Shown piece after piece: positions 48,941 to 52,736 of a DNA stretch of 64,000 nt. Numbering within the stretch: the stretch's first letter is position 1; every line of letters starts with the position of its first letter. The notes under the pieces were generated by a model. The model was given only the letters and a program-made list of their open reading frames with translations, ran no database searches and had not been told where the DNA came from. The translations under genes and the position numbers were made by a program. This DNA comes from Blastococcus saxobsidens (GTDB lineage: Bacteria; Actinomycetota; Actinomycetes; Mycobacteriales; Geodermatophilaceae): the NCBI RefSeq assembly GCF_002938435.1, contig NZ_POQT01000001.1, positions 62,001 to 126,000 on the forward strand. Reading direction: 5' to 3'.

Positions 48941-50131
48941 TCAGACCCTGGCCGCCCCGGCGACCTCGGGGGCGGTGCCATCGACCGACCGGCGGAGGGC
49001 GGCGTGCAGCGACTCCGGCGTCAGGACGCCGAGGAACCGGTCCCCGTCGAGCACGGCGACCCAGCCCGCCTCGAGTTGGAGCATCTGCGCGAACGCCGTC
49101 TTCAGGGAGGCGTCGGCCGGCACCCAGGCCTCCATGCGGCGGCAGGCCTCCCGGACCGTGCCGCTGCCGCTCGCGCGGTCCAGGGACAGCCAGCCGTGCA
49201 GCGCCTTGCGGTCGTCCAGGACGACGGCCCAGCGGGCGCCCGAGCGGACCAGTGCGGCGCGGGCGTCGGCCAGCCCGTCGTCGACGTGCAGGACCGGGGG
49301 CTGCTCGAGGTCGGCGGGGTCGATCCCGGTGACGGCCAGCCGCTTCAGCCCGCGGTCGGAGCCCACGAAGTCGGCCACGAAGGCGTTGGCCGGCCGCCCC
49401 AGCAGCTCGGCGGGCGTGGCGAACTGCTCGACCCGCCCGCCCTCGCTCATCACGGCGATCCGGTCGCCGATGCGCACGGCCTCCTCGATGTCGTGGGTGA
49501 CGAAGACGATCGTCTTCCGCACCGCGGCCTGCAGCCTCAGGAACTCCGCCTGCAGCCGCTCGCGCACCACCGGGTCGACGGCGGAGAAGGGCTCGTCCAT
49601 CAGGAGCACCGGCGGGTCCGCGGCCAGGGCACGGGCCACGCCGGCGCGCTGGCGCTGCCCACCCGAGAGCTGGGCCGGGTAGCGGTCGCCGTGCACGGCC
49701 GGGTCCAGCCCCACGGTGCCCAGCAGCTCGTCGACCCGTGCCCGGATCCGTTCCTTGTCCCAGCCGAGCAGGCGCGGGACCGTGCCGACGTTCGTCCGGA
49801 CGCTCTGGTGCGGGAACAGCCCGACGCTCTGGATCACGTAGCCGATCCGGCGGCGCAGCTGGTCGGGGTCGGCCCGGGTGACGTCCTCGCCACCGAGCAG
49901 GATCCGGCCGGTGGTCGGCTCGATGATCCGGTTGATCATCTTCATCGTCGTCGTCTTGCCGCACCCGGACGGGCCGACCAGCACGGTGAGCTCACCGGCG
50001 GCGAAGGTCAGGTCCAGCTCGGCTACGCCGACGGTGCCGTCGGCGTAGACCTTGCTCACCCCGTCCAGCCTGATCTCCAGCGCCTCCCCGGTCGCGGTCG
50101 CCGGCGGGGGAGTGTGCGCAGTAGCGTCCAC
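48941..50131 (-). CDS. opuCA: Glycine betaine/choline-type ABC transporter ATPase with CBS domains
   Basis: 396 residues. Walker A is GPSGCGKTT at 53-61, the signature is LSGGQRQRAGVARAL, and Walker B is PPVLLMDEPFSAVD. Residues ~265-390 form a CBS pair, which in OpuA/OpuC ATPases senses osmotic or nucleotide state. It would power uptake of compatible solutes with the divergent permeases and binding protein. GTG start, 17 bases from the ATG of the first permease on the other strand; most such operons put all genes on one strand. Confidence 0.9.
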   Translation of the reverse strand: MDATAHTPPPATATGEALEIRLDGVSKVYADGTVGVAELDLTFAAGELTVLVGPSGCGKTTTMKMINRIIEPTTGRILLGGEDVTRADPDQLRRRIGYVIQSVGLFPHQSVRTNVGTVPRLLGWDKERIRARVDELLGTVGLDPAVHGDRYPAQLSGGQRQRAGVARALAADPPVLLMDEPFSAVDPVVRERLQAEFLRLQAAVRKTIVFVTHDIEEAVRIGDRIAVMSEGGRVEQFATPAELLGRPANAFVADFVGSDRGLKRLAVTGIDPADLEQPPVLHVDDGLADARAALVRSGARWAVVLDDRKALHGWLSLDRASGSGTVREACRRMEAWVPADASLKTAFAQMLQLEAGWVAVLDGDRFLGVLTPESLHAALRRSVDGTAPEVAGAARV

Positions 50132-50148: not shown

Positions 50149-50868
50149 ATGCGCCTGGTGCTGAGCGCCGGAGCGATGGTGTCCGCCCCCGGTGACGTGC
50201 TGGCCGCGGACGCCGCGCCGAACCCGTGGTTCGACGCGTCCTACGTGGTCGACAACTGGGACACCATTGTGCGGTACCTCGGCGAGCACGTCAGGCTGAC
50301 GATCGGCGCCGTCGTCCTCGGCGCGCTGATCGCCCTTCCGCTGGCCCTGCTGGCCCGGCGGTACCGCTGGCTGTCGGGCCCGGTGCTCGGACTGTCGGCA
50401 GGCATCTACACGATCCCCTCCCTGGCCATGTTCGCCTTCGTCTTCCCGTTCACCGGCCTCACGGCGACGACGGTGCTGGTCGGCCTGACCCTGTACTCGC
50501 TGGTGATCCTGATCCGGAACTTCCTCACCGGGCTGCAGGGTGTGCCGGCCGACGTCCGCGAGGCGGCCCGCGGCATGGGCTACGGCTCCGCCCGGCTGTT
50601 CTGGCAGATCGACCTGCCCCTGGCCCTGCCCGCCTTCATCGCCGGGCTGCGCATCGCCACGGTCTCCACCGTCGCCCTGGTGACGGTCGGCGTGCTGGTG
50701 GGCCACGGCGGCCTCGGGCAGCTGATCTTCGGCGGCTTCAACGCGAACTTCTACCGGGCCGAGATCGTCACCGGCACCATCGGCTGCGTGCTGCTCGCCC
50801 TGGTCGCCGACGTACTCCTCGCCGGCGTCGAGCGGTTGTCCACCCCGTGGGCGCGGGCACGCGCATGA
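50149..50868 (+). CDS. Compatible-solute ABC transporter permease (OpuCB type)
   Basis: 239 residues with about five to six helices. The EAA-like loop GVPADVREAARGMGYGSARLFWQIDLPLALP is the site where the ATPase docks. The sequence matches the ProW/OpuCB permeases. The N-terminus is uncertain: an ATG at 50176 would remove nine residues. ATG overlaps nothing upstream, but the intergenic gap to opuCA is only 17 bases, so promoters probably lie inside the coding sequences. Confidence 0.87.
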   Translation: MRLVLSAGAMVSAPGDVLAADAAPNPWFDASYVVDNWDTIVRYLGEHVRLTIGAVVLGALIALPLALLARRYRWLSGPVLGLSAGIYTIPSLAMFAFVFPFTGLTATTVLVGLTLYSLVILIRNFLTGLQGVPADVREAARGMGYGSARLFWQIDLPLALPAFIAGLRIATVSTVALVTVGVLVGHGGLGQLIFGGFNANFYRAEIVTGTIGCVLLALVADVLLAGVERLSTPWARARA

Positions 50869-51596
50869 ACGGCTTCTCCGAGGCGTTCCTCTACCTGAAC
50901 GACCCGCTCAACTGGACCCGCCGCGGCGGCATCCTGGAGCTGCTCGGGGAGCACCTGGCCATCTCCGCCGTCGCGGTGCTGGCCGCGCTGGTCCTCGCCG
51001 TCCCCACCGGGATCGCGCTGGCGGTCACCGGCCGGGGCAGCGGGATCGTCGTCGTGCTGTCCAACGTCAGCCGCGCGGTGCCCACCCTGGCACTGCTGAC
51101 GCTCTTCGCGGTCAGCCCGATCGGCTTCGGCAACCGGGCGACCACCATCGCCCTGGCGGTGTTCGCCGTCCCGCCGATCCTGACCAACACCTTCGTCGGC
51201 TTCCGCGAGGTGGACGCCGACGTGCGGGAGGCCGCCCGCGGGATGGGGCTGCGCCGTCGCCAGGTGATCGCCCGGGTGGAGTTACCGCTCGCGCTGCCGC
51301 TGGTCATGACCGGCATCCGGACGGCGGCGGTCCAGGTGGTGGCGACGGCGTCCCTGGCGGCGCTCGTGGGCGGGGGCGGGCTGGGCCGGATCGTCAACCT
51401 CGGGTTCGGCCAGCAGGACTACGGCCAGATCATCGCCGGGGCGCTGCTGATCGCCGTGCTGGCGCTGGCCACCGAGGTGCTCCTGGTCCTGCTCTCCTGG
51501 GCGGTCACACCCGGCCAGAAGCGGTTCCCCTTCCCGGTCCGGCGGCGACTGTCCGCGACCGCGCCGGAGCCCACCGCAGCCGGAATGCCCCTCTGA
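50865..51596 (+). CDS. Compatible-solute ABC transporter permease (OpuCD type)
   Basis: 243 residues with six likely helices. The EAA-like loop is EVDADVREAARGMGLRRRQVIARVELPLALP. It resembles the first permease and pairs with it as a heterodimer. Overlaps the first permease by four bases (ATGA). About 150 bases of regulatory sequence separate it from the binding-protein gene. Confidence 0.88.
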   Translation: MNGFSEAFLYLNDPLNWTRRGGILELLGEHLAISAVAVLAALVLAVPTGIALAVTGRGSGIVVVLSNVSRAVPTLALLTLFAVSPIGFGNRATTIALAVFAVPPILTNTFVGFREVDADVREAARGMGLRRRQVIARVELPLALPLVMTGIRTAAVQVVATASLAALVGGGGLGRIVNLGFGQQDYGQIIAGALLIAVLALATEVLLVLLSWAVTPGQKRFPFPVRRRLSATAPEPTAAGMPL

Positions 51597-51672: not shown

Positions 51673-51697
51673 CGCGGGAATCCTCTCGCCAGACACG

Positions 51698-51717
51698 CGT
51701 GGCAGCCGGCTGCCACG
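51698..51717 (+). promoter_or_regulatory. Perfect 20-bp palindrome before the binding-protein gene
   Basis: CGTGGCAGCCGGCTGCCACG is self-complementary end to end. It lies 26 bases before the ATG. It may be a repressor operator or an mRNA stem-loop that stabilises the downstream message; both are common where a binding protein needs more copies than its permeases. Confidence 0.6.
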
Positions 51718-51743
51718 GGACACAGAAGGCGGGGCGTCACGAC

Positions 51744-52736
51744 ATGCGCGCACGCATCCGAACCATCGCTCCTCTCGCCCTCGCGGTCGCCCTGACCGCC
51801 GCGTGCGGGGAGTCCGGGTCCTCCGGGAGCGGCGGGGGAGGCGGCGGCGGCTCCCAGGCCTCCGGCGACGCCTGCGCCCCGGTCGCCGGCGAGCAGCTGG
51901 TGGTCCTCGAGGACGACCAGAACCTGCAGAACGCCGACAACATCATCCCGGCGGTCAACGCCGAGGCGGCCCAGGCCAACCCGGCCCTGCTGCCGGCGCT
52001 GAACCAGGTGTCGGCGGAGCTCACCACCGACGAGCTGATCGACCTGAACGCGGCCGTGGAGGTCCAGCGGGAGAGCTCCGAGGACGTCGCTGCGGCCTGG
52101 GTCGAGGAGAACATCGACACCGCCGGGCTCGAGCAGGGCAGCGGCGCGATCAGCGTCGGCGGGGCCAACTTCCCCGAGTCCGCCACCCTGGCCAACATCT
52201 ACGCGGACGTGCTGCAGGCGGCCGGGTTCGACGCGACCGTCCAGGAGGTCGGCAACCGCGAGCTGTACCTGCAGGCGCTGCAGGCGGGCGAGATCCAGGT
52301 GTTCCCCGAGTACCTCGCCACGGTGACCGAGTTCCTGGACGGCGACGAGTCCCGGGAGGTCGCCTCCGGGGACGTCCAGGAGACGGTGGCCGTGCTCGAG
52401 CCGCTGGCCGCCGACGCCGGGCTCGTCTTCGGGGAGCCGTCGGAGGCCGCGGACCAGAACGCCTTCGCCGTCACCCAGGCGTTCGCCGACGAGCTGGGGA
52501 TCAGCACCCTGTCGGAGCTGGCCGAGGCGTGCGGCGACGGCTCGCTGGTCCTCGGCGGGCCGGCCGAGTGCCCGGAGCGGCCGTTCTGCCAGCGGGGTCT
52601 GGAGGAGACCTACGGCCTGGAGTTCGACAGCTTCCGCGAGCTGGACGCCGGTGGCCCGCTGACCCGCGCCGCGATCGAGCGCGGTGAGGTCTCGATGGGT
52701 CTGGTCTTCAGCTCGGCGGGCTTCCTCGCCGAGTAG
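51744..52736 (+). CDS. Circularly permuted glycine-betaine-type substrate-binding lipoprotein
   Basis: 330 residues. A lipobox (LTAAC, C21) and a Gly/Ser linker lead to the mature protein. Residues ~50-125 (VVLEDDQNLQNADNIIPAV..., LNQVSAELTTDELIDLN) match what is normally the C-terminal end of OpuAC/OpuCC proteins. Residues ~135-330 (ISVGGANFPESATLANIYAD, VGNRELYLQALQAGEIQVFPEY, to MGLVFSSAGFLAE) match the normal N-terminal and middle parts. The order is therefore circularly permuted. It should bind a quaternary amine outside the cell and deliver it to the permeases. ATG chosen for its signal peptide. Confidence 0.88.
   Translation: MRARIRTIAPLALAVALTAACGESGSSGSGGGGGGGSQASGDACAPVAGEQLVVLEDDQNLQNADNIIPAVNAEAAQANPALLPALNQVSAELTTDELIDLNAAVEVQRESSEDVAAAWVEENIDTAGLEQGSGAISVGGANFPESATLANIYADVLQAAGFDATVQEVGNRELYLQALQAGEIQVFPEYLATVTEFLDGDESREVASGDVQETVAVLEPLAADAGLVFGEPSEAADQNAFAVTQAFADELGISTLSELAEACGDGSLVLGGPAECPERPFCQRGLEETYGLEFDSFRELDAGGPLTRAAIERGEVSMGLVFSSAGFLAE

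Follow-up and report, generated by a model that had tools for sequence, protein, structure and literature searches.

Circular permutation of an OpuAC-family substrate-binding lipoprotein in Blastococcus saxobsidens and other Actinomycetes

Does the binding-protein gene at 51744..52736 (+) in the genome of Blastococcus saxobsidens encode a chain whose segments have exchanged places, and what would such an exchange mean for a lipid-anchored component of a transporter? The gene lies in the window, the whole stretch of 64,000 nucleotides (nt) that was analyzed (contig NZ_POQT01000001.1 of assembly GCF_002938435.1, positions 62,001 to 126,000 of the forward strand), and codes for 330 amino acids plus a stop. 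A sequence-only reading had described the protein as a glycine-betaine-type binding protein in which the usual last segment comes first. This observation is right, and larger in extent than was claimed: the protein is a true circular permutation of an OpuAC-family substrate-binding lipoprotein, with three segments in the order B-F-M, the normal order being F-M-B. Profile-based annotation passes it as an ordinary OpuAC match and leaves the swap unflagged.

The segments were located where they had been placed in the open reading frame (ORF), all on the forward strand. Behind a signal peptide with a lipobox, predicted from the motif (51744..51806, with the lipidated Cys21 at 51804-51806), comes segment B (residues 51-122; 51894..52109), normally last and here first, comprising the last strand of lobe 2, linker 2 and the C-terminal half of lobe 1. 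A short joint, in which the original chain ends meet (residues 123-133; 52110..52142), leads into segment F (residues 134-262; 52143..52529), normally first, with the N-terminal half of lobe 1, linker 1 and the start of lobe 2. Segment M (residues 267-326; 52542..52721), normally in the middle and here last, supplies the rest of lobe 2. In 117 ORFs with this order the joint between B and F has a median of 11 residues and a range of 9-14.

The Pfam profile OpuAC (PF04069) scores 143.7 bits against a gathering cut-off of 21.2, and its match to the protein is not colinear but falls into two stretches in swapped order. In the profile search of the genome, profile positions 187-257 (E 7.6e-14) were matched upstream of positions 2-184 (E 3.1e-25); with hmmscan, residues 135-326 correspond to profile positions 2-181. 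By comparison, the profile matches each of the two normal-order paralogues of the same genome (P0003 and P0004; L001 and L002) in one stretch. Solved homologues are matched in the same swapped pieces. For instance, residues 138-296 align to positions 10-167 of the EgtUC chain 7txk (i-Evalue 7.1e-11) and residues 51-124 to positions 200-273 (i-Evalue 0.34, weak taken alone). When the protein was reordered (131-330 followed by 49-125), a single end-to-end match to EgtUC was obtained, 8-276 to 10-273, and the E-value improved to 3.4e-19 from 1.2e-15 in the native order. Every part is present once with no remainder, which bears out the claim of a rearrangement rather than a truncation. An unrelated N-terminal domain is ruled out, since the first 125 residues match the C-terminal part of the OpuAC profile.

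The AlphaFold2 model of the protein is confident (pLDDT 89.1) and has two lobes, the fold of cluster F-III binding proteins. Its best structural matches are OpuAC/ProX-like, led by the OpuAC of Bacillus subtilis (PDB 2b4l). Aligners that keep the chain order matched residues 132-330 to normal-order proteins and residues 37-261 to the B. subtilis protein, itself permuted; with these aligners, no normal-order protein matched across the whole domain.

The cut was positioned by alignment to EgtUC, for which a figure legend of PMC9732360 gives the limits of D1 as 232-331 and 445-503 and of D2 as 341-432, with linkers between them. Interdomain linker 2 corresponds to residues 55-66, and the cut separates the positions that align with EgtUC 426 and 427, six residues short of the end of lobe 2 and just before linker 2. 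Since this is the final loop of lobe 2, the chain would run from the anchor through a linker to the last strand of lobe 2, then through linker 2, lobe 1 and linker 1 to the rest of lobe 2. Lobe 1, which normal proteins have in two pieces, would thus turn continuous, lobe 2 would be split with its last strand as the new N-terminus, and the lipid anchor would shift from lobe 1 to lobe 2. The sequence-only reading had suggested that the anchor and the hinge strands could both move relative to the binding cleft. The mapping supports the former but not the latter: in it, both interdomain linkers stay in place and the chain ends alone change.

The same order had been suggested as a thing to seek in other actinobacteria. 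A scan of named genomes gave 80 loci, all 80 with the order B-F-M, in Blastococcus, Geodermatophilus, Modestobacter, Demequina, Actinotalea, Cellulomonas, Micromonospora/Verrucosispora, Catellatospora and Allorhizocola, and also in metagenome-assembled genomes labelled Sporichthyaceae and Spirochaetaceae. The locus labelled Spirochaetaceae (L103) is of the window type, with an RNA element before the gene and 71.6% GC, and its contig was probably wrongly binned. Full or nearly full matches to the permuted profile were found in 38 of the 150 genomes drawn from the taxonomic order, in addition to one genome with a split gene (G066), and in two of the 396 genomes drawn from the phylum, one of them the window's own; matches over part of the range were judged among the matches listed. 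Once identical cores had been removed, 111 distinct ORFs remained with the B-F-M order. Counts also took in, with repeats kept, six permuted and 23 normal loci from the RNA-element search described below; at least two of these are repeats (L199 is the window's own gene, and L212 comes from the same genome as L156). At L151 (2536-3790, +) the permuted gene appears as two overlapping ORFs in a genome that is 74% complete, so that error and decay are indistinguishable there.

Five cysteines (Cys21, Cys44, Cys263, Cys276 and Cys282) are shared by all 56 rows of alignment A1. Cys276 and Cys282, in segment M, are common to the permuted protein and its normal-order relatives. An equivalent of Cys44 (51873..51875), at the new N-terminus of the folded domain, or of Cys263 (52530..52532), in lobe 2, occurs in none of the 50 normal-order rows. 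Among the 111 distinct ORFs, cysteines near both positions are found in 104 and near neither in seven, and never one alone. These seven come from family f10, which branches as sister to all other rows of the permuted clade, and the simplest reading is that both residues were gained jointly after the permutation. In the AlphaFold2 model, position 44 precedes the new first strand and position 263 ends a helix of lobe 2, so a disulfide between them would attach the new end of the chain to lobe 2; the pair probably forms such a staple. A further candidate, that APVAGE before LVVLEDD, in the N-terminal linker, is a relic of the segment preceding M, was dropped, as the motif is too short to judge and is missing in family f10.

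For the trees, permuted pieces were put into the usual order before alignment and permuted rows were thinned by identity ahead of each tree; two long branches that joined together in the 81-row tree (L148 and L002) were left out of the 94-row and 67-row trees. The permuted clade of the window makes up one side of a branch with support of 99/93 (81 rows), 100/93 (94 rows) and 93/88 (67 rows), and in the 94-row tree it falls, together with normal-order genes, into a group of 65 rows with support of 99/95.

The reading we prefer, with a probability of about 0.87, is that the gene encodes a working lipoprotein of an Opu/Osm-type importer of the ATP-binding cassette (ABC) class, whose mature domain was permuted once in the ancestor of a set of Actinomycetes and which probably carries a Cys44-Cys263 staple. 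The B-F-M order, its conservation, the single clade nested among normal-order genes, the common neighbourhood and the retention of most conserved residues were computed directly. The remaining steps are inferred. The permuted protein would fold into the usual two lobes, capture its solute between them and pass it on to the two permeases in the manner of normal-order relatives. Its membrane tether would hang on lobe 2 instead of lobe 1, with the disulfide fastening both this tether and the new N-terminal strand to lobe 2. As for the origin, the domain was probably duplicated in tandem and its outer parts then lost, with the leader RNA and the signal peptide left in place.

Several results weigh against this reading. 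Support for the clade goes down to its lowest value in the 67-row sample, and the immediate sister of the clade is uncertain (90/48 in the 94-row tree). The ratio of nonsynonymous to synonymous substitution rates (dN/dS, NG86) is not low, with a median of 0.475 and a maximum of 0.907 over 435 pairs of 30 genes, although this measure is unreliable in very GC-rich genes. The cysteine pair changed once on the tree, and its co-occurrence therefore counts as one evolutionary event. No duplicated or fused intermediate of the permutation was found.

The B-F-M proteins, cut between M and B, are not the only permuted members of the family. In a second type, M-B-F, the chain is opened between F and M. 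This type is represented by 20 ORFs (L115, L116, L142-L147, L166, L173, L175, L176, L179-L181, L229-L232 and L148); full-range matches to it occur in 11 of the 396 phylum genomes, and the best Pfam stretches place profile positions 114-257 first or 2-113 last. M itself is divided in a third type, M2-B-F-M1, which was found in two genomes of family f88 (L163, 1498-3402, -; L165, 1087-2229, +), with profile positions 2-145 or 2-148 last. The cuts of the second and third types map into lobe 2 of EgtUC, and all three types of cut thus fall in lobe 2; each would therefore transfer the lipid anchor to lobe 2 from its usual place on lobe 1. Two further cases were noted. L233 (2248-2979, -) is cut by a contig end and starts in M2 (M2-B-F), which fits the second or the third type, and G128 resembles the second type in the table of profile matches. 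In L148 (2121-4070, +) the M-B-F OpuAC domain is fused to a peptidoglycan-binding domain and a polysaccharide deacetylase, and no importer genes were matched within the 6 kilobases examined around it.

Counting gains and losses alike, with roots used for drawing only, the trees of 81, 94 and 67 rows require six, five and six order changes, of which the second type alone requires four, three and four. On the rows of the 94-row tree, a single clade of all second-type rows was rejected by the approximately unbiased test (p-AU 4.3e-06), as was a single clade of all permuted rows (9.1e-06). By the trees, the second type arose several separate times.

Natural permutation is already in print for betaine-binding proteins at the level of structure and for TpMglB-2. 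CPSARST lists a permutation among the betaine-binding proteins 2b4l, 1r9l and 1sw1 (PMC2395249). The first of these, the glycine-betaine binder OpuAC of B. subtilis, belongs to the OpuAC family and is naturally permuted with respect to its nearest sequence relatives; in a normal-order OpuAC-type protein of the B. saxobsidens genome, residues 173-299 align to its positions 4-127 and residues 69-172 to positions 164-266. However, it belongs to a different subfamily, its cut between F and M is that of the second type, whereas the window's cut lies between M and B, and the text consulted describes no cysteine pair in it. TpMglB-2 (Tp0684, 'Type Ic') of Treponema pallidum is a naturally permuted, lipid-anchored ABC glucose-binding protein whose ligand binding is normal (PMC4990184). 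It differs in its Type I, cluster B fold, its sugar ligand and its four hinge crossings, where the B. saxobsidens protein would have two linkers. The closest solved relatives by sequence are EgtUC, Archaeoglobus fulgidus ProX, OpuBC and OpuCC of cluster F-III; they have the same lobes and linkers by alignment, but the normal F-M-B order. Searches of an open-licence subset of PubMed Central brought up CPSARST and TpMglB-2 but nothing on these permuted proteins, their repeated origin, a cut before linker 2 or the cysteine pair, and a term search of PMC2861598 and PMC12667903 gave nothing on permutation in this family.

Whether the rearrangement had any consequence is a separate question. It stands at about even odds that the permutation, though real, is neutral: the old ends are close, duplications are common, cuts in the loops of lobe 2 are tolerated and the position of the anchor is irrelevant to transport. 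The shortness of the joint is as expected with old ends near each other, and the permuted proteins occur in the same kind of locus as the normal ones. The conserved residues are also retained: 42 columns are at least 90% conserved in 50 normal rows, and at 35 of them at least 90% of the 117 permuted rows have that residue too. The normal binding by TpMglB-2, for which its authors see no obvious advantage of the permutation, points the same way. Neutrality accounts less well for the repeated order changes, for cuts that all map to lobe 2 and for a cysteine pair found in one permuted clade only. The sample of breakpoints is small, and recurrence at a site may mark it as permissive and no more.

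The family name of the protein is no evidence of its substrate. Cluster F-III proteins have a cage of four aromatic residues, of which two are kept in the B. saxobsidens protein by sequence mapping: F293 and Y419 of EgtUC correspond to Y190 and F322, and Y341 and Y443 are replaced by N239 and D65, with N339 corresponding to D237. All 56 rows of A1 have N239, and the NCBIfam OsmF equivalog model (NF049931) scores 82.5 bits, under its cut-off of 400. Because two cage aromatics are replaced, the ligand may differ from glycine betaine. The stronger proposal, that the protein is not a betaine binder at all and that the transporter, its quaternary-amine cage altered, carries another small solute, could go either way: the cage was mapped at about 25% sequence identity and might be rebuilt by other residues, and the neighbouring genes are ProV- and ProW-like.

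An adaptive role for the anchor switch appears somewhat doubtful. Here a tether on lobe 2 would help the protein to dock on the two permeases or to come off them, and would have been selected several times. Three different cuts and five or six order changes all shift the anchor to lobe 2, the cut of B. subtilis OpuAC coincides with that of the second type, and the authors of TpMglB-2 raise an anchoring argument for their own case (PMC4990184). However, cuts in lobe 2 may just reflect permissive loops there, and cuts in lobe 1 close to the old ends could escape the profile-range test, judged among the matches listed. A broader version can be offered only tentatively: the subfamily would be a hot spot of permutation with at least five or six rewirings by three cuts, each of them carrying the tether over to lobe 2 from lobe 1, the choice of tethered lobe being under selection and the clade of the window being locked later by its permutation-specific Cys44-Cys263 disulfide. 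Finally, a misassembly, a pseudogene or a fusion with an unrelated domain is extremely improbable, since the conservation of the order across genera, in independent genomes and in some cases within one contig (G007, G017 and G021), refutes an assembly fault, and the open frame, the conserved residues and the profile matches of both parts speak against decay or fusion, with nothing of the kind found for the gene itself and one relative, L151, split into two ORFs.

Natural permutations that can be read from sequence and have normal-order orthologues in the same type of locus are rare material. This one family has the normal order and three permuted orders in the same importer context, and it allows a direct test of whether chain order and the anchor-bearing lobe matter for the capture and hand-over of the solute; it is a natural test of why proteins have a given chain order. 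Its binding proteins also serve as scaffolds of fluorescent sensors, and several of the PDB matches are such sensors, for which natural cut sites would be useful.

The gene is preceded on the same strand by two ABC permease genes with BPD_transp_1 domains (50149..50868 and 50865..51596, +), the ATG of the second overlapping the stop of the first, and a ProV-type ATPase gene with a CBS domain is divergent from them (48941..50131, -). The lipobox Cys21 together with these adjoining genes marks the protein as the binding lipoprotein of an ABC importer. Two permeases lie upstream on the same strand in all 61 distinct named loci, and the ATPase is on the opposite strand in 60, with none matched in the remaining one. 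The arrangement is identical at the near normal-order loci L135, L136 and L140 and at both third-type loci, and the permutations thus happened in genes of the same kind of locus. Second-type loci also have permeases, and their ATPase, where matched, is on the same strand.

Directly before the start codon lies a structured RNA element (51683..51734, +) with an outer stem that includes part of the ribosome-binding site, an internal loop with GACAC on both sides and a covarying inner hairpin. In an alignment of 54 sequences, cells changed on both sides numbered 107, compared to 45.5 in shuffles, and the covariation score was 0.345, compared to 0.126, neither value being reached in any of 500 shuffles; covarying pair types also exceeded the shuffles. 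Six of the eight pairs of the inner stem covary, and the outer stem is nearly invariant. The number of pairs with two-sided change was not above shuffles (7 versus 6.5; 203 of 500), and the folding energy was not unusual for the window's element (z of -2.13 over 55 nt and -0.67 over 79 nt) or in three relatives (+0.73, -1.35 and -1.38). The Rfam scan of the window's stretch was empty up to an E-value of 1; in the loci of five relatives it yielded just two poor matches, both unrelated and away from the element. The short pattern of the element was not found before 18 second- or third-type genes.

The outer stem includes part of the ribosome-binding site, and translational control by this candidate cis-regulatory element is therefore likely. 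It is analogous to the proX motif, a riboswitch candidate of Spiribacter with 17 representatives which is likewise a structured RNA with an occluded ribosome-binding site before the binding-protein gene of a betaine transporter (PMC8632094); the two were separately described and are likened by description only. The RNA model has one match in the B. saxobsidens genome and matches in 51 of 197 genomes of the class. A binding-protein gene follows the element at 29 of 30 loci, in normal order at 23 and permuted at six; the remaining locus lies at the end of its contig. That the leader precedes normal as well as permuted genes speaks for a rearrangement inside the coding domain that left the 5' end in place. 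Two permuted genes form a tandem pair (L149, 3543-5852, and L150, 3231-5530), each with its own RNA element.
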